From a virus, in the IMG/VR virus record IMGVR_UViG_3300030106_006393, positions 7,216-47,669 of that record: a stretch of DNA of 40,454 nt, one strand, 5' to 3'. This document shows, one piece after another, positions 30,701 through 39,921 of the stretch (position 1 is the first letter of the stretch; each line of letters begins with the position of its first letter). The position numbers and the translations under genes were made by a program. The notes beneath the pieces were generated by a model, which made no database searches, was not told the origin of the DNA, and was given only the letters and a program-made list of their open reading frames with translations.

Positions 30701-31048
30701 GACTCTGGAAAGAATGAAAGAATAGACAAGATAAAAGAGCCTTACAACGTAGACCTAACAATGGTTGGAAATAATCTTTTCTCTCAAGGTATTCACTTTT
30801 ACCTTTTGCCTACAGTTCCCGGCAAAGAAGGTCAAAAGATCGCGAGAGAACTTGGCTTGGGCGGTTACTATGCAACAGTAGGTGCGTCGATGAAAATAGA
30901 CATGATGAGTGGGTTTACAACAACGCTCCGTGGATCGCTACAAAACTTCGGACCTCCTGACGATGTAAAGTCAGCCGTAAACGCTGCGGGACAAAAGGCC
31001 AAAGACCGAAGCCTAAGAGAACAGGTAAAGGAAGCTAAAAGAAAATGA
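27785..31048 (+). CDS. Large baseplate-associated structural protein
   Basis: 1087 residues from ATG 27785. Residues 1-30 (SIRVSEIQKKLKSLNYSSNLNEDE) resemble a peptidoglycan-binding-type helix pair, followed by an Ala-rich globular region (40-190). Residues 325-470 are beta-rich (ALVPHFKMFIRYGDKDFELPFQG). Residues ~430-520 include HCGWSVPHGTPEELI. The C-terminal region has NNLFSQGIHFYLLPTVPG and RELGLGGYYATVGASMKIDMMSGFTTTLRGSL, a block I associate with baseplate-hub-like proteins of large phages. No catalytic muramidase motif is obvious. Between gp53 and the last structural gene, so a hub or wedge part is likely. Family not named. Confidence 0.65.
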   Translation: MSIRVSEIQKKLKSLNYSSNLNEDEREAQAAWGAALIALHFAFSRDAPNSVEDVDWGSLFKESGQSAFGVIATTHVARYLQAISTRKIDGFAADATHAANTGKVKGLKFEAKNSYGSATEGLAINLYLGMHNQNKESDEGAAARKWWNGFLKKNEIPEQVAGIRYNVDPYAFYNQYKALENEDGGLDLLAAELQNFETPIPNYFGVTEKNYILEALQEGVGAGVGPGPEKTNEQRTAESKKKIAEIATKRKLLKENNFKEQLMLMANIESLKDQNKDSTYRNFSFLRSHNPEIPLENQVYAFRGKEEFLNMTNLQVSALVPHFKMFIRYGDKDFELPFQGTSLDPAEVLTFNRTRALGFRDFEWTYEGKYLETAKKQIEANLSLYGDNLGVFDKAVGIYQPNQEDVSKVLKYNGALPTVDLKGAGKVLAPREIKFADLLTRDRDLQFKVHCGWSVPHGTPEELISTNLKSAIESNIVTLVMELVEHTFEFQQDGTFGLNLRYKSRILGGLQEVDLMAPPEERKGPLTDQAKKNRKFETELRRKFSKELDFNPTSKNADKAPIFSSDVITEGQLESFAETHFPTKDKTVVVRELKDILRSGDTKNHRRRAQAIVAQQLANKNSRRTGSNLSRILNDIENRSRVFYLEVNTLGFKNYFEGARASQQMQEELNNIDGTLSEKEYKEEQKRIVLFYDEQERARRAQISKAAVNKSGKTATGIFNKITSEELNKRATSGPAGHASGTFKLPYFYFGDLIEAALNVAGEQYTREDVSLILGTMPHKKFAISTFDMKLVNFKAAMVEPKIIQIPLVDVPISTRNYSAWIHNEYIKKPTTKIELSSFIIGAFNNLIKPAFSGETDFVKLLESQKSHLAVNSNTFSSEVPKNGKTLRKGQISLDDLNGIATSNSPKPNVATKNFVLFSANQVALPLEKPTPEEVRKGRGIVLTLGRDRGLVKTANFSKLSMPNLVAARFMADSGKNERIDKIKEPYNVDLTMVGNNLFSQGIHFYLLPTVPGKEGQKIARELGLGGYYATVGASMKIDMMSGFTTTLRGSLQNFGPPDDVKSAVNAAGQKAKDRSLREQVKEAKRK

Positions 31049-32391
31049 AAATACAACAACCATTTATAGTACCATCGACAAACAACAGCAGAGCTAAGCA
31101 CAGTTACGACTCCCGCTTAGACTACAAGAAGATGGCTCTGGATTTTCTCGATGCCGTCCAGCAAAAGAACAGGTTTATAGATCTGTGGTATGACAAGCCT
31201 CTGTATGGAAAGATAGATATCGAGGGCAATGCAGTGTATAATCTTCCGGAAAGCACGTTAAAGCAGCTAAATTCAGATGGCGAGATCTTGTTTGCGATTG
31301 ACTTTGTGGCCCATGCCTTTGAGGATATGAAAAGATTCTTTACAGACGCCGTCGCAAAAGGGCAAATGGGAAACAAAATAGGCTCAATTCAGGGACTGAA
31401 TCCCAAGAGAGCATGGACTAGTCCACTTGCAGCGTTTAATGAGCATATGGCGATGTTGAAAAATTTCTTTATATCAGAATTCCTTATGGCCAATAAGAAG
31501 CACATACAGAATATACATGATGTAATAAAACAATACAGAAGATTTGTCAAAGCTTATGCTAAAGATTTTCCGATGACATTTAGTAGATTTTTGTTGTCTG
31601 GTTTTTGCCCTATACAATCCAGCGGACTTATCATCGAGCTATCAGAGTTTCAGCACGGCAACGATATAACGAACCTTGAGATAATGGACTCTTATGTATT
31701 TAATAAATATACATCGATGGCCAACAGGTATGGGTTTTTTGTAAATAAGAATGCGCCTTATGCTCTTGTTGCTAATCTAAGTTCGTCAACAATGAAAAGG
31801 TACATGAGGCACTATGATATTCAAAACCCAAAGCACTACTTTGAAGACTATTGTTACCCAGCGTACAGGTCAGACATGCACAGAATGAGGGAGTTTGTCT
31901 ATGAGTGTTACAAAGAATTTGTTTTGGCAAGGCCCTTTCGTAAATCGACAGTTGTCACAAAAAGGGGCATAAGCAAGAGAACCCGAGCGAGAGAGTTCTT
32001 GACATTGACTCAATATAACAGTACAATAAGTATGAATGAGTGGACTGAGATATGTATATTCGTAAAAGCCTCAGAGCTTGGGATAGACATGCATCCAACA
32101 GAGGTGAAGAGATTGGTAGAAAAAGTAAACTATCTTAGAAGCAGAGAAAACGAAGTTCAAGACGAGCGCGCCACAGCTTCCGGCTGGGCAGCTGGTAATC
32201 TCTCTCAGGAAGAGAGAGAAGAGAGAACACAACGAAGAAATGCAGAAAGAAAACTGTGGGCAAACCGTTCTATGAAAGAGATAAACGACTATTTCAAAAA
32301 GAGAGACCCAAGGGTTAACTTGCTTCTCAAGGGAAAGGTCCCAACTGGTTCAGATCATTCAATGGGCGATCCAAACAATTTAAGTTATTGA
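31045..32391 (+). CDS. Hypothetical structural protein at the end of the tail cluster
   Basis: 448 residues from ATG 31045, overlapping the previous stop as ATGA. It is rich in aromatic and basic residues (Phe, Tyr, Arg, Lys) and mostly helical, with FVAHAFEDMKRFFTDAVAKG, LMANKKHIQNIHDVIKQYRRF, and a charged coiled-coil C-terminus (EEREERTQRRNAERKLW). No enzymatic motif. Translational coupling to the 1087-residue protein suggests the two work together in the baseplate. Function unknown. Confidence 0.65.
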   Translation: MKIQQPFIVPSTNNSRAKHSYDSRLDYKKMALDFLDAVQQKNRFIDLWYDKPLYGKIDIEGNAVYNLPESTLKQLNSDGEILFAIDFVAHAFEDMKRFFTDAVAKGQMGNKIGSIQGLNPKRAWTSPLAAFNEHMAMLKNFFISEFLMANKKHIQNIHDVIKQYRRFVKAYAKDFPMTFSRFLLSGFCPIQSSGLIIELSEFQHGNDITNLEIMDSYVFNKYTSMANRYGFFVNKNAPYALVANLSSSTMKRYMRHYDIQNPKHYFEDYCYPAYRSDMHRMREFVYECYKEFVLARPFRKSTVVTKRGISKRTRAREFLTLTQYNSTISMNEWTEICIFVKASELGIDMHPTEVKRLVEKVNYLRSRENEVQDERATASGWAAGNLSQEEREERTQRRNAERKLWANRSMKEINDYFKKRDPRVNLLLKGKVPTGSDHSMGDPNNLSY

Positions 32392-32397
32392 GGTTAA

Positions 32398-33594
32398 ATG
32401 TATTTTCAGAGTATTGATGACAAGCAAGAGTGCTTGGGTCTCTATTACGACTCTCGATGTGTGTTTGAGGACATCGACTTTTCTAAGCTGACAAGGACTT
32501 GGAAGTATACCAAGACCCTGTTAGATCATGACAACATAGAGTATGGATTTTTATTTTCCGGCGGCAAGTCGATAGACGAGATGTGCCCTGACCACATGCG
32601 TCACGATTGGGATGCTGTGTCCAGAAGGATGAATGCGTTTTTAAAATCTCTAAATACTGCAAAGGTAGACCTTTCTGAAAACTGCTTCTTCGAAATTATT
32701 TCGCCCAAAGAAATTTCCAGATTTTTGGAAATCAAAAACAGGATAACTGAGCATGTATTCTCTAGCGTTTCTCGTCCAAAAGAATACGAGCACTTATTGA
32801 GCATCGCGAAGATGATTGAAGAGATAAAACACCAAGAAGTTGTGATCGACACAAAGAGGCTAAAAGCGGATTCCTATAAAGCTAAAAACATGGCCTTTTC
32901 CCAAACTCTGAGAAAGGTACGAAATCGCGTATCTTACAAGCTCTTCGGAACAAAGACAGGAAGACTAACAGTCGATAAAGGCTACTTTCCAGTTTTGACT
33001 CTCGATAAGGAATTGAGAAAGTATGTAATTCCAAATAACGACCTGTTTATAGAGGTTGATGTAAATGGTGCGGAAATTAGAACCCTATTGGCTCTTTTGG
33101 GAGAAGAACAGCCAGATGTGGACATTCATGACTGGAATGTAGAAAATGTCTACAAGTCCGGAACCAGAGAAGAGGCAAAAAAGAGATTTTTCGCTTGGCT
33201 GTATAATCCTGCCTCGAATGATGACGCCTCATCCGATACCTATAACAGAGAACTGATAAAGAAGAGGTTTTGGGACGGAGAAAAGGTCACTACACCGTTT
33301 TTTAGAGAAATCGACAGTGATGAGTATCATTGTGTAAATTATACTTTACAATCGACGTCAAATGATGTATGCTTGGAGCAGGCAAGAAAAGTATTCGATA
33401 TATTAGACCAAAAGAAGAGCAAAATTGCCTTCTTGATGCATGACTCTATTATCTTAGATTTCGCCGCCTCTGAAAAGTCGCTATTGCGAGAGATCATAGA
33501 GGCCTTCAGAAATACGAGATTTGGACAGTATAGAGTCAATGTCAATATGGGTAAGAATTTTGGAGAAATGAAGGAAATCAATTGGAAACAATAA
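32398..33594 (+). CDS. polA: Compact family A DNA polymerase (palm/fingers only)
   Basis: 398 residues from ATG 32398 with TTGAGG upstream. Family A motifs align in order: TKTGRLT (185-191), motif A EVDVNGAEIRTLL with Asp221 and Glu226 (E. coli Pol I D705/E710), motif B R257-K261-F265-Y269 (R754, K758, F762, Y766 spacing exactly kept), a Q-helix NYTLQSTSND (about 314-323) and motif C MHDSIILDF with His348/Asp349 (H881/D882), Ser350 replacing Glu883. Both catalytic aspartates are present. No 3'-5' exonuclease or 5'-3' exonuclease domain fits in the first ~150 residues, which are divergent; a FEN-type exonuclease is separate at 37533. Role: genome replication or a reduced accessory polymerase. 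The gene's 3' end overlaps the tubulin-like gene. Confidence 0.85.
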   Translation: MYFQSIDDKQECLGLYYDSRCVFEDIDFSKLTRTWKYTKTLLDHDNIEYGFLFSGGKSIDEMCPDHMRHDWDAVSRRMNAFLKSLNTAKVDLSENCFFEIISPKEISRFLEIKNRITEHVFSSVSRPKEYEHLLSIAKMIEEIKHQEVVIDTKRLKADSYKAKNMAFSQTLRKVRNRVSYKLFGTKTGRLTVDKGYFPVLTLDKELRKYVIPNNDLFIEVDVNGAEIRTLLALLGEEQPDVDIHDWNVENVYKSGTREEAKKRFFAWLYNPASNDDASSDTYNRELIKKRFWDGEKVTTPFFREIDSDEYHCVNYTLQSTSNDVCLEQARKVFDILDQKKSKIAFLMHDSIILDFAASEKSLLREIIEAFRNTRFGQYRVNVNMGKNFGEMKEINWKQ

Positions 33595-34418
33595 TTGCAC
33601 TCGGTACGGTTGGATGTAATGTAGCGCGAAAGCTAGAACAGTACGAACAATACGACGTATACAAGATTGATCACGAAGAGTCAGAAGAAAAGAACTATCA
33701 AAAGATCAGAAAGTACGATAATCCTGAAAAATACGAGAAAACAATCCCTGGAGTAAAGACACTCTTAAAAAAGGTGGAGGGTTCTGTGCTTTTTGTTGTA
33801 TGCGGTGCAAGCACCGTTGCATCTGCTTCTTTGGTCATACTTGAGCAGATTCACAAAAGGTGCGACATCAATGTTTTGTACGTAAAGCCAGAAACAGACC
33901 TTTTGAGCGAACAAAAGAAAATGCAAGAGAGGGCTGTCCGCAATGTATTGCAGCACTATACTCGTTCGGGTATGTTGGAAAGAACATTCTTAGTATCTAA
34001 CGAGTCTCTAGACCCGATGGTTGAAGATGCATCAATATTAGGGTATCACGACTCTTTGAACGACCTGATCTCTTCAGCGTTTCATATGATCAACTTCTTC
34101 AATCACGTTGACTCTGTTACCGACACATTCTCGCCTCCAGCGGAGACTGCTAAGATTTCCACGATTGGAATGATGAGTATCGAGACAGGCAAGGAAAACA
34201 TGTTCTTTCCTCTTGACAGAGTCAGAGAAACACGCTATTATTATGGCATACCTGAAGAAAGCCTCAGGAAAGAAAAGCTGCTTCACAGAAAGATTGTGAA
34301 ACAGGTGAAAGAAAAGGCAACAGACAGCAAGAAGGTAAGCTATGGGATATACTCAACAACTTATAACGACGAATTTGCATACGTTTTGTCTCATTCGTCA
34401 TTCGTACAAGAAATGTAA
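33582..34418 (+). CDS. Divergent tubulin/FtsZ-superfamily-like protein
   Basis: 278 residues starting at TTG 33582 with AAGGAA upstream, overlapping polA by 13 nt. N-terminus ETIIALGTVGCNVARKLEQ fits the first strand-loop-helix (FtsZ GxGGxGxN). Residues 68-92 (SVLFVVCGASTVASASLVILEQI) fit the tubulin signature strand and T4 loop, where FtsZ has GGGTGTG; here it is degenerate (CGASTVAS). INVLYVKPETDLLSEQKKMQERAVRNVLQ matches FtsZ VxVVTKP ... RxxxAxxGLxxL; LVSNESLDPM matches FtsZ IPNDKL. The C-terminal 100 residues are too divergent to judge. Could be a viral cytoskeletal element (as PhuZ/TubZ are) or an adapted non-polymerising relative that handles replication. The fold call is by eye, moderate; activity unknown. 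Confidence 0.6.
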   Translation: METIIALGTVGCNVARKLEQYEQYDVYKIDHEESEEKNYQKIRKYDNPEKYEKTIPGVKTLLKKVEGSVLFVVCGASTVASASLVILEQIHKRCDINVLYVKPETDLLSEQKKMQERAVRNVLQHYTRSGMLERTFLVSNESLDPMVEDASILGYHDSLNDLISSAFHMINFFNHVDSVTDTFSPPAETAKISTIGMMSIETGKENMFFPLDRVRETRYYYGIPEESLRKEKLLHRKIVKQVKEKATDSKKVSYGIYSTTYNDEFAYVLSHSSFVQEM

Positions 34419-34425
34419 TTTTTAC

Positions 34426-34453
34426 TTGACAAACAAGTCAAACTTGGTATAAT
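34426..34453 (+). promoter_or_regulatory. Sigma70-type promoter for the SSB gene
   Basis: TTGACA (34426-34431), 16-bp spacer, TATAAT (34448-34453): both hexamers are perfect consensus. It lies just after the tubulin-like gene and 71 nt before the SSB ATG, so transcription by the unmodified host polymerase, hence early expression, is likely. Confidence 0.88.
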
Positions 34454-34524: not shown

Positions 34525-35298
34525 ATGGCTCTCAATTTAGATCGCATGCGCGAGAAACTTAACGCTGTCACCGGAAAGGGAGATGGCAAGCGGGGTGACT
34601 TCTGGAAGCCCAAAGACGGAGAGAACAATATTCGAATTGTTCCGACACCCGATGGAGACCCCTTTAAGGAGAAGTTCTTCCATTATAACGTAGCACAGGG
34701 AGGATTCCTGTGTCCAAAGAGGAACTTTGGTGATAACTGCCCTGTCTGCAACTTTGGAAACAAGCTGTGGAACGAGGGAACAGAAGAGAGCAAGAGAATG
34801 GCAAAGCAACTTTTTGCCAAGCAGCGCTTCTTTTCACCAGTTTTGGTCAGAGGAGAAGAAGATCAAGGCGTACGAGTCTGGGGATACGGTAAGCTGGCTT
34901 ATGAAAAGCTGCTGACAATTGTCCTCGATCCTGACTATGGCGACGTGACTGATCCTGAAAGTGGCAATGACCTCAAGGTTATGTATGGCAAGCCACCAGG
35001 CGCTTCATTCCCTAGAACTGATATTCGAGCCCGACCTAGAAAGACGGTGCTGTGCGACGATGCTGTGGGCGGCGATGAACGCTGTGCAGAGCTGCTTGAG
35101 ACAGTTCCTAATCTGGATGAGATTTTCGAAAGAAAGTCCACAGAGGAAGTTCAGGCCCTGCTTGACGCTTTCTTGGACGGAGACAATACAGACAATCAGG
35201 TAGAGAAGTTTGGTGGCACTACGACCACCACCACGACTACCACTACAAACGAAACGGATGCTGTTGAGGCAGCATTCAATGATTTGCTAAATAACTAA
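34525..35298 (+). CDS. gp32: Single-stranded DNA-binding protein, gp32-like
   Basis: 257 residues from ATG 34525 with AAAGGAGA. It starts with a basic arm (LDRMREKLNAVTG). Zn ligands in the T4 gp32 pattern are His53, Cys63, Cys72 and Cys75 (FHYN ... CPKRNFGDNCPVCNFG). The core follows with YGKPPGASFPRTDIRAR. A run of ten Thr near residue 230 links to an acidic C-terminal tail (ETDAVEAAFNDLLNN) of the kind through which gp32 recruits replication partners. It covers single strands at the fork and works with UvsX and helicase found downstream. Own sigma70 promoter and structured leader. Terminator follows. Confidence 0.93.
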   Translation: MALNLDRMREKLNAVTGKGDGKRGDFWKPKDGENNIRIVPTPDGDPFKEKFFHYNVAQGGFLCPKRNFGDNCPVCNFGNKLWNEGTEESKRMAKQLFAKQRFFSPVLVRGEEDQGVRVWGYGKLAYEKLLTIVLDPDYGDVTDPESGNDLKVMYGKPPGASFPRTDIRARPRKTVLCDDAVGGDERCAELLETVPNLDEIFERKSTEEVQALLDAFLDGDNTDNQVEKFGGTTTTTTTTTTNETDAVEAAFNDLLNN

Positions 35299-35313: not shown

Positions 35314-35341
35314 AGGCACGGGTTTACAGGTGCCTTCTTTT
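35314..35341 (+). terminator. Intrinsic terminator/attenuator between SSB and FKBP genes
   Basis: AGGCAC (35314-35319) pairs with GTGCCT (35330-35335) around a 10-nt loop, followed by TCTTTTA. The short stem and interrupted T-run suggest partial read-through into the genes behind. Confidence 0.6.
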
Positions 35342-35359
35342 AAAGAAAGGAATAAAATA

Positions 35360-35800
35360 ATGGGAAAGAAGAGAAAGGCCCTTAAGGGCAGGACAGTTAA
35401 CGTTCATTATGTAGGAACTTTGGATGACGGTACAACATTTGACAGCTCCAAGGCTCGTGGAGAGCCAATTTCATTTGAGGTTGGTGCTGGTGAGATGATC
35501 CCCGGTTTTGATACTGCTGTAGACGGCATGACAATCGGAGAAACAAAGAATATCACGGTTCCGCCAGAAGAGGCATATGGAGACTTTAATCCACAGGCTT
35601 TTCAGGTTGTCCCGGCAGAAATGTTCACGGAAGGCTTTAATCCGGAACTTGGACAGGTTGTGCAAGGAACCACAGGTACCGGAGAAACTTTTACTGCTAG
35701 AGTTCATACGCTAGAAGACAACTCTGTTACTCTAGATTTTAATCACCCAATGGCTGGTAAGAATCTCAATTTTGAGATCGAACTAGTTAGCGTGGAATAA
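35360..35800 (+). CDS. SlyD-like FKBP-type peptidyl-prolyl isomerase
   Basis: 146 residues from ATG 35360 (AAGGAA upstream); a GTG at 35330 in frame lies in the terminator stem and is rejected. FKBP layout: VNVHYVGTLDDGTTFDSS, then MIPGFDTAVDGMTIGETKNITVPPEEAYGDF, an inserted flap of about 45 residues (80-125) and LDFNHPMAGKNLNFEIEL. The AYG and NHPMAGKxLxF boxes are characteristic of the SlyD branch, in which the flap acts as a chaperone domain. The His-rich metal-binding tail of E. coli SlyD is absent. It catalyses prolyl cis-trans isomerisation and protects folding proteins, plausibly for phage structural or replication proteins. No signal peptide, so cytoplasmic. Followed at once by the secreted protein gene. 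Confidence 0.9.
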   Translation: MGKKRKALKGRTVNVHYVGTLDDGTTFDSSKARGEPISFEVGAGEMIPGFDTAVDGMTIGETKNITVPPEEAYGDFNPQAFQVVPAEMFTEGFNPELGQVVQGTTGTGETFTARVHTLEDNSVTLDFNHPMAGKNLNFEIELVSVE

Positions 35801-35801
35801 A

Positions 35802-36320
35802 ATGCTTAAGAGTATCTTAGTTTGCGCCATGGCGCTAATGATGTCGACACCAGCTTTCGCACAAGAGAAGAATTGGGATAAACGTTCCGGGCTTAGATTT
35901 GGATATGGTTATCTTAACGGGGTGCGAGAGATGGAAAACATGAATAACCCCGGAAAGGTTAAGCGCCTCAGTCCTCACACTTTTGTGTTGGGGTTTGAAA
36001 TGCAGCAGGTGCTGGAGGGCGGAGACTGGTTGGATATCTTGTTTATCCAAAACGTCAGTATTAGCGGACTGGATCAAAGTGTGATTAATCCATCGGCCAG
36101 CGCTCTGGTTGGGTTTGAAATTGATAAACAAATTCAGCTAGGCGTCGGCCCAAATATCTCGACATTTGATCCATCCGGCAAGGACAAGATAGTTCACCTG
36201 ATTATAGCTGCTGGGTGGACATTTCAAGCTGGTATCTTTAGTGTTCCAGTTCACTTTAGTATCGTCCCCGATTCAGATGGATATTGGGGCGCAGCGTTAA
36301 CAACTGGTGTAAATTGGTAG
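35802..36320 (+). CDS. Secreted, probable outer-membrane beta-barrel protein
   Basis: 172 residues from ATG 35802, one base after the isomerase stop codon. A signal peptide is clear: MLKSILVCAMALMMSTPAFA with cleavage after Ala20 (AFA-QE). The rest alternates aromatic/hydrophobic and polar residues in strand pattern (SGLRFGYGYLNGV, HTFVLGFEMQQVL, ALVGFEIDKQIQLGVGPN, HLIIAAGWTFQAGIFSVPVHFSIV, YWGAALTTGVNW), ending in an aromatic residue as barrels for BAM insertion do. No lipobox. A phage-coded surface or periplasmic protein in an early operon could block superinfecting phages or alter the envelope; this is inference. Its UvsX neighbour overlaps neither gene. Confidence 0.75.
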   Translation: MLKSILVCAMALMMSTPAFAQEKNWDKRSGLRFGYGYLNGVREMENMNNPGKVKRLSPHTFVLGFEMQQVLEGGDWLDILFIQNVSISGLDQSVINPSASALVGFEIDKQIQLGVGPNISTFDPSGKDKIVHLIIAAGWTFQAGIFSVPVHFSIVPDSDGYWGAALTTGVNW

Positions 36321-36331
36321 GAGTAAATAAC

Positions 36332-37462
36332 TTGGCAAAAATTAGTAAAATTAAACCCGGTAAAATCTCTATGGATGAGATGCGCCGTATCATCAACAAG
36401 AAGGCTGGCCATGAAGTGGCGCATAGCCTGGCAGAAGACAATCCAACAGAGGTAAAAGAATGGATCCCAACTGGCTCACGCTGGCTAGATTCCATTATCT
36501 GTAAAGGAAAGCTTGCAGGTATTCCTGTAGGGAAGATCGTAGAGATTGCAGGGCTAGAAGCCACCGGAAAGTCTTATATGGCAACGCAGATCGCTGCAAA
36601 TGCCCAAAAGATGGGGCTTGATGTTGTGTACTTCGACTCTGAGTCTGCTATCGACCCTTCCTTTCTAGAAAGGGCAGGCTGCGATCTTGACCGCCTGATG
36701 TACATTCAGGCCGAGAGTGTGGAGTTTGTTCTAGAAACTATCGAAGAGCTACTGGCGACAGGCAACAAGTGGCTATTCATTTGGGATTCTTTGGCGCTAA
36801 CTCCAGCTATCTCTGATATCGAGGGTGACTTTAATCCTCAGTCATCGATGGCAGTAAAGGCAAGAATCTTGTCAAAGGGCATGTCAAAACTAACTGTACC
36901 AATTGCCAACAGCAAGGCAACACTATTGGTGCTTAATCAGCTGAAGACGAATATCACTCGATCTCCATCTGAAGCGATGACAACCCCATATGTAACACCA
37001 GGCGGCAAGGCGATGCACTACGCATATTCTTTGCGTATCTGGCTTACAGGAAGGAAAGCAAAAGCATCCTTCGTGCAAGACGAGAATGGTTTTAGAATTG
37101 GATCAGAAGTTAAGGCAAAACTTGAGAAGTCTCGTTTTGGCACTGCTGGTCGTCACTGCAACTTTAAGATTCTTTGGGGCAACACTGACAGTGTAGGCGT
37201 TCAGGATGAGGAGAGTTGGTTTGATGCCATTCAGATTTCAGATAGTCTAAAGCAGTCTGGAGCCTGGTTCTCGCTAACCCTTGAAGACGGAACAGAAAAG
37301 AAGTTCCAGCGTAAGGGTTGGGTAAAAGAACTGCAAAACGAAGATTTTCGCAAAAGAGTCTTGCAAATCATCGATGAGGATGTTATAATGAAATTCGATA
37401 ACAGAACAGGAAATGCTTCCGACTATTACGAGAAGGAAGAAGACTCGCCCGCTAAGGAGTAG
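36332..37462 (+). CDS. uvsX: UvsX, RecA-like recombinase
   Basis: 376 residues starting at TTG 36332 with TAGGAG upstream; the longer in-frame ORF (ATG 36284) would run inside the preceding gene and has no ribosome binding site. Walker A GLEATGKS (74-81), Walker B WLFIWD (147-152), the FDSESAIDPSF segment after strand 2 and VTPGGKAMHYAYSLRIWL are all RecA/UvsX hallmarks. It forms filaments on ssDNA with gp32-type SSB, pairs homologous DNA and drives recombination-dependent replication. Length is near T4 UvsX (391). It is followed by a strong terminator. Confidence 0.95.
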   Translation: MAKISKIKPGKISMDEMRRIINKKAGHEVAHSLAEDNPTEVKEWIPTGSRWLDSIICKGKLAGIPVGKIVEIAGLEATGKSYMATQIAANAQKMGLDVVYFDSESAIDPSFLERAGCDLDRLMYIQAESVEFVLETIEELLATGNKWLFIWDSLALTPAISDIEGDFNPQSSMAVKARILSKGMSKLTVPIANSKATLLVLNQLKTNITRSPSEAMTTPYVTPGGKAMHYAYSLRIWLTGRKAKASFVQDENGFRIGSEVKAKLEKSRFGTAGRHCNFKILWGNTDSVGVQDEESWFDAIQISDSLKQSGAWFSLTLEDGTEKKFQRKGWVKELQNEDFRKRVLQIIDEDVIMKFDNRTGNASDYYEKEEDSPAKE

Positions 37463-37532: not shown

Positions 37533-38492
37533 GTGAAGAAGAGACTGATGATTGTGGATGCGCACAATCAATTTTTAAGATCATATATTGTAGACCCAAG
37601 CCTATCAACAAATGGGCAACCCATCGGTGGTTCAAAGGGTTTCCTAAAGATTCTAAATAAGCTAACAAGAATCATAAGCCCAGACATGACCATTGTAGTT
37701 TGGGATGGTGAGGGAGGTTCGCAAAAGCGCAGAGCCCAAAACAAGAACTACAAGCAGGGAAGAAAGCCTGTCCGCCTCAATAGAGACATACGTCACCTTA
37801 CAGAGGAGCAGGAAAGGGAAAACAAAGCATGGCAACAGATTCGTGCAATTGAGTACCTAAATCAGACCCCTGTTGTTCAGTTCATGGAGCCGAGAGTAGA
37901 GGCAGACGATGTCATTTCTCATGTTGCCCAAGCGCCAAAATTTGAAGAATGGCAAAAGGTAATCATCTCCAGTGATAAAGACTTTATTCAATTGCTGAAC
38001 GATAAGACTATCCTATACAGGCCAACACAGGATCAGGTTTTGAACAAGAACAAGGTTCTAGAGGAGTATAGTATTCATCCAAACAATTTTGCATTAGCTC
38101 GTGCTATGGTTGGAGACAAGAGTGATAACTTAGACGGTGTCAAAGGCGTAGGCTTGGCGACCGTTGCAAAGAGGTTTCCGTTCTTCGCAAGAGAGGAGGA
38201 GTGCTTTATTGATGACGTTATCGAACATTGTCATTCTCAAGAGACCGGTCTAAAGGTTTATGATCGGATTCTGGAAGAGCAGGACAAGATAAACAGCAAC
38301 TACAAGATTATGCAGTTGTATTCACCTACAATTTCGGTACAAGGTAGAATGAGAATCAACGAGACTCTGGAGGGACACCAGCCAGAGTTCAATAAGACAG
38401 GCTTGCGAAAGCTGATGCTTCAGGATGGTATTGGAGAGGTGTCCTTAAGTTCTCTGTATGAGAGTTTTAACAGAATGATTTCAGACTTTTAG
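37533..38492 (+). CDS. rnh: 5'-3' exonuclease / RNase H of the FEN family (T4 rnh-like)
   Basis: 319 residues starting at GTG 37533 (GAAAGGTAAG upstream). FEN-type metal ligands appear in order: Asp9 (MIVDAHN), Asp58 (VVWDGEGGSQKRR), Glu123/Asp125/Asp126 (EADD), Asp148/Asp150 (SSDKD), Asp195/Asp198 (GDKSDN), and a helix-hairpin-helix GVKGVGLAT. In T4, RNase H removes RNA primers and adjacent DNA on the lagging strand with gp32. Its length is close to T4 rnh (305). The family A polymerase in this genome lacks this domain, so this is probably the missing partner in trans. Only 12 bp separate it from the uvsX terminator; its promoter is unclear. Confidence 0.92.
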   Translation: MKKRLMIVDAHNQFLRSYIVDPSLSTNGQPIGGSKGFLKILNKLTRIISPDMTIVVWDGEGGSQKRRAQNKNYKQGRKPVRLNRDIRHLTEEQERENKAWQQIRAIEYLNQTPVVQFMEPRVEADDVISHVAQAPKFEEWQKVIISSDKDFIQLLNDKTILYRPTQDQVLNKNKVLEEYSIHPNNFALARAMVGDKSDNLDGVKGVGLATVAKRFPFFAREEECFIDDVIEHCHSQETGLKVYDRILEEQDKINSNYKIMQLYSPTISVQGRMRINETLEGHQPEFNKTGLRKLMLQDGIGEVSLSSLYESFNRMISDF

Positions 38493-38547: not shown

Positions 38548-39921
38548 ATGACAGATAAAGAAAGAGAAGATTTTTCTAATTTTGGAAAGACTTTTCAAGA
38601 GGACTTGTGCCATCTGATTTTGGCTGATAGGCCTTTTGCTGATCAGATATTTGAAGTATTGGACACGAACTTCTTAGAGCTTAAGCACTTAAGAGTTTTC
38701 GTCAAGAAGATTTCGAATTATAGAAAGAAGTATGGTGTCCACCCTACGGAAAAGATAATGAAGTCCATTATCAGGACAGAGTTAAAAAGAGAACCTGAAT
38801 CAATTCAGGTTCTTATTAGGGACTACTATGCGAGGGTGTTATCTTCTGGCCTTGAGCCGGAAGGTTCAGAGTATATCAAGGATGTCTCTCTTGATTTTTG
38901 CCGAAAGCAAAAGCTGAAAGAGGCCTTAATTAAGTCTGTTGATTTGATCAAGCGATCTTCTTTCGAGGAAGTCAGCAGCGTTATCAACGACGCGATTAAA
39001 CTTGGTAGTGACAACAATTTCGGGTATGATTATCTTCTAGACTTTGAGAAGAGATTTGAAATTAGAGAGAGAAACCCAATCACAACAGGTTGGTCAGAGA
39101 TAGATTCTTTGTGCAAAGGGGGCCTGGGCAAAGGCGAGCTAGGAGTTTGTATTGCTCCGACTGGCGCGGGCAAGAGTATGGCGCTGGTTCATTTAGGAGC
39201 CCAGGCCCTCAAGGCAGGCAAGAACGTTGTTCACTACACTCTCGAATTGGGGGACACGATTGTAGCAGGAAGGTACGACAGTTGCATTACGGGTGTGGAC
39301 CTATCAAACATGACGTCTTTCAAAGAAAAGATCTATGAAGAGATTCAAGACATTGAGGGCAGGTTGGTCGTCAAAGAATATCCGACTCGTTCAGCGAGCG
39401 TACAAACGCTTCGAAGCCACCTTGAAAAGATGAAACTAAGAGGCTTCGAGCCAGATTTGATCATCGTGGACTACGGAGACCTTCTTCGGCCAATTTCTTC
39501 AGGAAAAGATGAGAAAAGACATCAACTGGAGACTATTTATGAGGAGTTGAGAGGAATTGCGCAAATCAACGAATGCCCAGTCTGGACTGCCTCTCAAACA
39601 AATAGAAGCGGGTTGAATGCTGAAGTCATAACGATGGAAGCTATTTCAGAAGCGTTCAACAAGTGCTTCGTCGCTGATTTTATATTTACTGTATCAAGGA
39701 CTATTGAAGACAAAAATACCAATAGTGGGCGCATCTTTGTAGCTAAAAATAGAAACGGACCCGATGGATTGGTTTATCCAATATTCATGGACACGAGCAA
39801 CGTAAAGATTAAAGTGCTACCGCCCACAAATGAGTCTGTCGATGACATTATAGAAAACTCAGCGAAAAAGCAGATGCAAAAGTTAAAAGAAAAATACAAG
39901 GATTTTAAAAAGGAGAGTTAA
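38548..39921 (+). CDS. gp41: Replicative DNA helicase, DnaB/gp41-like
   Basis: 457 residues from ATG 38548. N-terminal helical domain (1-165), then RecA-type core: Walker A APTGAGKS (203-210), TLELGDTIVAGRYD (231-244; DnaB motif SLEMxxxxLxxR), Walker B DLIIVDYGDLLRP (303-315), and sensor WTASQTNR (347-354). DnaB-type ring helicase moving 5'-3' at the fork, normally loaded through gp59 and tied to primase gp61 in T4. Length close to T4 gp41 (475). Upstream weak sigma70-like promoter. Two genes on is class II RNR. Confidence 0.94.
   Translation: MTDKEREDFSNFGKTFQEDLCHLILADRPFADQIFEVLDTNFLELKHLRVFVKKISNYRKKYGVHPTEKIMKSIIRTELKREPESIQVLIRDYYARVLSSGLEPEGSEYIKDVSLDFCRKQKLKEALIKSVDLIKRSSFEEVSSVINDAIKLGSDNNFGYDYLLDFEKRFEIRERNPITTGWSEIDSLCKGGLGKGELGVCIAPTGAGKSMALVHLGAQALKAGKNVVHYTLELGDTIVAGRYDSCITGVDLSNMTSFKEKIYEEIQDIEGRLVVKEYPTRSASVQTLRSHLEKMKLRGFEPDLIIVDYGDLLRPISSGKDEKRHQLETIYEELRGIAQINECPVWTASQTNRSGLNAEVITMEAISEAFNKCFVADFIFTVSRTIEDKNTNSGRIFVAKNRNGPDGLVYPIFMDTSNVKIKVLPPTNESVDDIIENSAKKQMQKLKEKYKDFKKES

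Follow-up and report, generated by a model that had tools for sequence, protein, structure and literature searches.

To our knowledge, almost every known relative of tubulin and FtsZ is a GTPase that forms filaments. In PhuZ of phage phiKZ and in TubZ, the catalytic aspartate lies in loop T7, and T7, the base of helix H8, and strand S9 make the protofilament contact (PMC3678025). The T7 loop with H8, the glycine loop T3, and the C-terminal tail are all part of the protofilament interface or needed for assembly in these proteins (PMC3678025, PMC5322520). Diverged families have been found by sequence analysis before. FtsZl1 and FtsZl2 (Makarova and Koonin 2010, PMC2875224) are FtsZ-tubulin families of which the former has no recognizable T6-H7 segment and may not form ordinary filaments (PMC2875224). 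Tubulins have also been reported in marine jumbo phages, and those phages are phiKZ-like and carry a shell protein (PMC9123017). The protein described here, which we call TUB, comes from uncultured phages with T4-like replication genes and has kept and lost different parts of the fold.

The window analyzed is a stretch of 40,454 nucleotides from a 71,447-base IMG/VR record. TUB is encoded on its plus strand at positions 33582–34418 as a 278-residue protein with a TTG start codon, and AF2, Foldseek, and hhalign point to a minimal protein of the tubulin/FtsZ fold. As the preliminary description had pointed out, the 5′ end overlaps the polA open reading frame (32398–33594) by exactly 13 nt, and an SSB gene, here seen to be of the gp32 type, lies downstream. 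The TTG start is supported by the homologues, which begin with METII or MDTII at the same position; the start codons of 141 distinct relatives are ATG in 121, GTG in 13, and TTG in 7. Sequence comparison indicates a real gene, because dN (0.009) is far below dS (0.145) between the window and a 97% identical relative (L001) and because homologues reach down to 28% identity. In a set of 126 relatives made non-redundant at 96%, residues G8, Y24, L84, Q124, R128, and S129 are near-invariant, so the motifs discussed below are not chance resemblances. The TUB gene of L035 contains a stop codon and the polA gene of L112 (3962–5130) lies in two frames, which could be sequencing error or decay.

The AF2 model of the window protein, built from a 53-sequence alignment, has a mean pLDDT of 94.6 and a pTM of 0.92. 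It predicts two domains, a Rossmann-like N-terminal domain and a C-terminal domain of strands S7–S10, with helix H7 between them. By our own assignment in tubulin nomenclature, the elements run S1, H1, S2, S3, S4, H4, S5, H5, S6, H6, H7, S7, S8, H10, S9, S10. The best Foldseek match in the PDB is Bacillus TubZ (4ei7; E 2e-12, probability 1.00), with dozens of FtsZ structures behind it (E about 1e-11, TM-score by query up to 0.73), and all 50 PDB matches listed are tubulin-superfamily proteins that align over the full length of TUB. Among viral models, the closest is A0A6J5RW92 (E 9e-13, query TM-score 0.76), a 452-residue protein of an uncultured Caudovirales phage annotated as "FtsZ Cell division GTPase" that is 11% identical to TUB; identity between TUB and its fold matches in general is about 9–13%. 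A complete two-domain tubulin/FtsZ fold is thus predicted with high confidence. The fold had been proposed from motifs, with residues 1–175 as the segment to compare, and the structural matches to TubZ and FtsZ extend it to the whole chain.

Profile comparison points the same way. The 126-member profile matches a profile of nine PhuZ sequences with P 3.7e-7 and a probability of 93% (hhalign), and the profile of the 111 members that retain the nucleotide pocket matches nine FtsZ sequences with P 7.5e-4 over residues 3–168. In the FtsZ alignment, T1 falls on T1, T4 on the GGGTGTG signature, the T6 asparagine on the T6 asparagine, and H7 on H7; loops T1, T2, T4, and T6 and helix H7 are in register with both PhuZ and FtsZ. 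A first comparison, with a 53-member profile, gave P 1.3e-5 against PhuZ, whereas about two dozen controls from unrelated neighboring families all gave P ≥ 0.047; the known relation between PhuZ and FtsZ scored P 1e-7 in the same comparison. Later controls against a mixed PhuZ and FtsZ profile went down to P 0.012, compared with about 5e-6 for TUB. Because the values for TUB lie far below those of the control comparisons, we consider the homology to tubulins real on the strength of these profiles, with PhuZ the nearest family among those testable. Simpler searches are silent. The window protein has no PHROG match and only sub-threshold Pfam matches, its relatives have no match in PHROGs, and neither phmmer nor a profile hmmsearch finds a match in the PDB. 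Pfam Tubulin (PF00091) is touched by 12 of 53 relatives, with a best E of 0.003, and stays below its curated cut-off in G000. TrkA_N is touched by just as many; Pfam touches to Rossmann/TrkA and RecC-like families were dropped as sub-threshold. A single-sequence hhalign comparison with one β-tubulin was uninformative.

TUB shares features with FtsZ, TubZ, and PhuZ but fails the tests that define each of the three. Like PhuZ, the tubulin of the phiKZ-like, nucleus-forming phages, it is phage-encoded, has the tubulin fold, a GGAG-type T1 loop, and an altered T4 loop. Unlike PhuZ, it has 278 residues rather than the 314–327 of the nine PhuZ used and has no C-terminal tail; all nine PhuZ keep a [LIS]D..D[ILV] motif at T7 (read by eye), whereas TUB has neither H8 nor the T7 aspartate. 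The genomic setting appears to differ as well. PhuZ queries lead by tblastn to phiKZ-like phages, and TUB phages carry T4-like replication genes, with gp32, UvsX, DnaB, and DnaE, and have TUB between polA and ssb. TubZ, which serves plasmid and phage segregation, is the top fold match but is a polymerizing GTPase with H11 and a tail (381–399 residues in the matched PDB chains). With FtsZ of bacterial and archaeal division, TUB shares the fold and the register of the T6 and H7 asparagines but not GGGTGTG, the NxDxxD of T7, H8, or a division-gene context. FtsZl1 and FtsZl2 differ in keeping GGGTG(S/T)G, in being cellular and longer, and in their tie to membrane remodeling (PMC2875224), and TUB is the opposite of FtsZl1 in that T6-H7 is kept and the signature is lost. 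Since it has the fold of the superfamily but falls outside FtsZ, TubZ, and PhuZ, we class TUB, on profile and model evidence, as a new and divergent family within the tubulin/FtsZ superfamily.

Three landmarks had been read from the window sequence in FtsZ order, GTVGCN, VVCGASTVASASL, and VLYVKPETDLLSEQKKMQERAV, and all three are present in that order. The T1 loop (33597–33620, plus strand, as are all features of TUB) comprises residues 6–13, ALGTVGCN, with the family form GLGxAGCN, and aligns with CGGAGF of PhuZ and GVGGGGGN of FtsZ; G8 is found in all 126 relatives, G11 in 119, and C12 in 108. At the T2 position, Asp30 (33669–33671) is kept in 113 of 126, and Asn140 (33999–34001), at the guanine-contact position of T6, in 111. 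Helix H7 (34044–34100; residues 155–173 by DSSP) carries the base-stacking position 156 and Asn160, the latter kept in 112 relatives, and His168, kept in 122. The T4 or tubulin signature loop (33801–33827), placed on the FtsZ signature by hhalign, reads CGASTVASA at residues 74–82. The alteration of GGGTGTG reported earlier for the window protein therefore stands, and it extends to the family: GGGTG(S/T)G is GASTVAS in the window and G[SA]Gx[IV]SG in the family, whose full form G[SA]Gx[IV]SGA replaces GGGTGTGA. The accompanying remark that known phage tubulins keep the signature needs qualification for PhuZ, where the loop is not uniformly GGGTGTG (GGASGS, SGGSGS, SGASGS, and others).

Fifteen of the 126 relatives lack N140, and 14 of these are exactly the 14 that lack N160. 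An acidic residue replaces glycine at T4 position 77 in 13 of the 15 and in only two other members. Among 58 conserved columns, the loss of N140 is associated most strongly with N160 (14/14), A10 in T1, D30 in T2 (p 9e-5, a statistic that ignores kinship), and I14 in H1 beside T1. Sequence co-variation by itself, with no structural input, thus points to the nucleotide site of tubulins. The hypergeometric values for these columns ignore the tree, on which well-supported branches force only two losses: in a 53-member tree built without these columns, N140 and N160 are lost jointly twice on such branches. Parsimony on the 126-member tree requires six changes for N140 and five for N160, and tree-corrected pair tests had too few independent supported pairs for significance. 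We infer that the pocket works in most members and has been lost as a whole in several lineages. Most members, that of the window included, would bind a purine nucleotide, by analogy guanine. The window protein keeps G8, G11, D30, N140, and N160 and so probably binds nucleotide, perhaps weakly, since its T4 loop departs further from the signature than the family consensus does (S77, A80, and S81) and a histidine occupies the stacking position (His156). A nucleotide-free relative, as had been suggested, is therefore unlikely in the window, although other lineages do lose the pocket.

The region expected to hold the T7 loop and H8 (residues 174–191, 34101–34154) has no helix and no conserved acid: the model runs from the end of H7 at residue 173 to the start of S7 at 192 with no helix between, and the best candidates for an acid are position 188, with Glu in 65 and Asp in 30 of 126, and position 181, with Asp in 45. 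A glycine loop is missing from the T3 region. The chain ends just past S10 (strand residues 265–272 of 278) with no C-terminal tail, and in relatives it is longer by about 20 residues at most. Because H8, a conserved T7 acid, the T3 glycine loop, and the tail are absent from sequence and model, TUB is unlikely to form ordinary GTPase filaments, and the same would hold for most members of the family. It may still polymerize by a new interface.

Conservation in TUB peaks elsewhere. The most conserved element (0.80) is the C-terminal end of H5 (33951–33968), residues 124–129, QHYTRS in the window and QEYARS in the family. The least conserved stretches are the T7/H8 region (0.43), the first half of H5 (0.44), and the T3 region (0.45). 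Q124 is present in 126 of 126 relatives and R128 and S129 in 125 each, and these three residues are retained in 14–15 of the 15 pocket-less members. H168 on H7 is invariant in the pocket-bearing members and kept in 11 of the 15 pocket-less ones. Since the end of H5 is the most conserved element and T3 and T7/H8 are among the least conserved, the strongest selection appears to act on a face of TUB outside the canonical filament contacts.

TUB is not a peculiarity of one contig. A pattern scan of IMG/VR, using a seven-sequence alignment, finds relatives on at least 162 viral contigs, most of them 36–55% identical to the window protein. A search anchored on polA instead of TUB avoids circularity: TUB lies downstream in 11 of 11 loci of a first such scan and in 72 of 72 viral loci with more than 1.5 kb beyond polA of a wider one. 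Eight large records, the window's own among them, have one copy each. TUB is thus a core gene of a large group of uncultured phages, with records up to about 200 kb. tblastn with three queries finds no TUB in 50,697 cultured-phage records, a search of about 85,000 cellular genomes gave no convincing match, and the open-access literature searched contains no description of the family. Candidates from outside this group did not hold up: a 38-residue C-terminal match in Niabella, the one match from cellular genomes and absent from the first scan of them, is probably due to chance; gp002 and gp003 in the polA–ssb gap of Flavobacterium phage immuto, considered as a split or distant TUB, were tested and ruled out; and the open reading frame at the same place in Microcystis phage Mel-JY01 resembles neither TUB nor PolA.

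The order polA-TUB-ssb-...-uvsX-exo-dnaB is essentially constant. In the window, all on the plus strand unless a strand is left unspecified, TUB is followed by genes for the gp32-type SSB (34525–35298; PF08804, E 1.7e-13; phrog_1192, E 2e-24), an FKBP-type peptidyl-prolyl isomerase (35330–35800, strand unspecified), which only some relatives have inside the replication cluster, a UvsX/RecA recombinase (36284–37462; PF00154, E 5e-38), a 5′–3′ exonuclease (37533–38492; PF02739, E 7e-26), and a DnaB-type replicative helicase (38548–39921; phrog_19, E 2e-71). In most loci, polA and TUB lie −3 to +26 nt apart; in some the distance is about 310–322 nt, and in a few it is 0.8–1.5 kb.

The polA gene encodes a small family A DNA polymerase of 398 residues (32398–33594, plus strand; Pfam PF00476; AF2 pLDDT 92.4) that Foldseek matches to Klenow and apPol. 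AF2 and Foldseek predict a Klenow-type polymerase with no 3′–5′ exonuclease domain, and the catalytic Asp221 and His348-Asp349 and the finger-domain residues R257, K261, and Y269 are kept in all 20 aligned members. PolA also has a conserved N-terminal region of about 200 residues, and its motif C is HDS/HDE-like. A DnaE-type Pol III α of 1143–1164 residues is encoded in all eight TUB genomes searched, the window's own included (noted at G000:56429–57232 and in seven other records, L208–L215), which makes PolA a second polymerase; it may serve in repair, in translesion synthesis, or in filling gaps. The coupling of TUB to a phage DNA polymerase proposed at the outset thus holds for the gene arrangement, but the polymerase in question is an exonuclease-less PolA beside a DnaE replicase. 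The bacterial β clamp (PF02767) was found in none of the eight genomes in a search that detected its positive controls, and the gp45 clamp (PF02916) in none of the eight in a search that had no positive control. Because the two open reading frames overlap, translation of TUB looks coupled to polA. On its other side, 8 nt past the TUB stop codon, lies a σ70-type promoter (34426–34453, plus strand) with a perfect TTGACA-N16-TATAAT and a TG before the −10 element, and comparable sites occur 3–10 nt past the stop in many relatives. With a strong promoter of its own between the two genes, ssb can be transcribed without TUB, so co-transcription of TUB with ssb need not hold.

The explanation that best accounts for these observations, and to which we give an even chance of being right as a whole, is that TUB is a nucleotide-binding, non-hydrolyzing, non-filament protein that assists or scaffolds the PolA/SSB machinery. 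Most members would hold a purine nucleotide without hydrolyzing it in trans and without forming an ordinary protofilament. As a monomer or in small assemblies, TUB could use its invariant face, which combines the end of H5 with the second half of H7 (Q124, R128, S129, H168, and M169). In its nucleotide-bound form it would serve PolA, which lacks an exonuclease and whose gene ends inside the TUB reading frame, as an accessory or scaffold, and perhaps also help SSB or UvsX at sites of replication or repair. In some lineages, the nucleotide would have become dispensable while the H5 face stayed intact. The choice of PolA as partner and the accessory role are best guesses from gene order, and the roughly 0.3–1.5 kb that separate polA and TUB in some relatives speak against a PolA partnership.

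TUB could instead be a cytomotive filament like PhuZ or TubZ, polymerizing by a noncanonical interface and placing the replicating phage DNA within the host. The closest profile match is indeed PhuZ, a phage tubulin that centers DNA (PMC4244570), TubZ is among the best structural matches, and TUB sits inside a replication cluster. We nevertheless consider a DNA-positioning filament unlikely, as the T7 loop and H8, the T3 glycine loop, and the C-terminal tail are missing or unconserved. A one-sided tubulin could alternatively bind host FtsZ by its nucleotide-side face and cap or poison Z-rings, halting division during infection. An FtsZ-like nucleotide-binding half with the lower, T7/H8 interface gone is the anatomy expected of such a cap. 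Antagonism of FtsZ nonetheless seems rather improbable to us, because TUB is strictly found in the replication cluster and not among host-takeover genes and because conservation peaks at the end of H5 and in the latter half of H7 rather than in the loops on the nucleotide side.

The same invariant polar residues, lying away from the classical pocket, could instead form an active or ligand site, Q124/R128/S129/H168, of an enzyme or nucleotide sensor with another reaction. We know of no precedent for such a use of the fold in the tubulin superfamily, and H168 is lost in 4 of the 15 pocket-less members, which leaves an enzyme or sensor with little probability. That TUB is an unrelated, NAD-binding-like Rossmann protein merely resembling FtsZ, as the equal number of TrkA_N and Tubulin touches in Pfam might suggest, is nearly refuted by the exclusively tubulin-superfamily matches among those listed, which include the C-terminal domain, and by pocket co-losses that coincide with T1, T2, T4, T6, and H7.

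The accessory or scaffold role can be put more boldly. TUB may have left the cytoskeleton altogether to become a core, non-polymerizing subunit of a complex for phage replication or repair around the exonuclease-less PolA, with a structural or sensing pocket that was repeatedly discarded and a new protein-binding face that stayed invariant. We regard this version as possible and advance it tentatively. A core gene that retains the fold and the base-recognition residues without the parts for polymerization and hydrolysis would reveal other uses of the tubulin fold, and it would add to the phage replication machinery a new component that the family libraries searched do not recognize. Six pocket-less relatives in two supported clades provide natural controls for the role of the nucleotide.

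Gaps of recurrent size occur between polA and TUB (about 305–322 nt in several loci) and between TUB and ssb (about 360–440 nt in others), which suggests that optional small genes have been inserted on either side. Directly 5′ of polA, and conserved there in the relatives, is a gene for a 448-residue protein (31045–32391 in the window) with no assigned function and no Pfam or PHROG family. The closest large relative, G003, about 190 kb in length (L198–L207), encodes a GroEL-like chaperonin and a ribonucleotide reductase of the B12-dependent type. It also carries a PurZ-like adenylosuccinate synthetase (phrog_1211; G003:70329–71213) that was not found in the other seven records searched and suggests 2-aminoadenine in the DNA of this phage.
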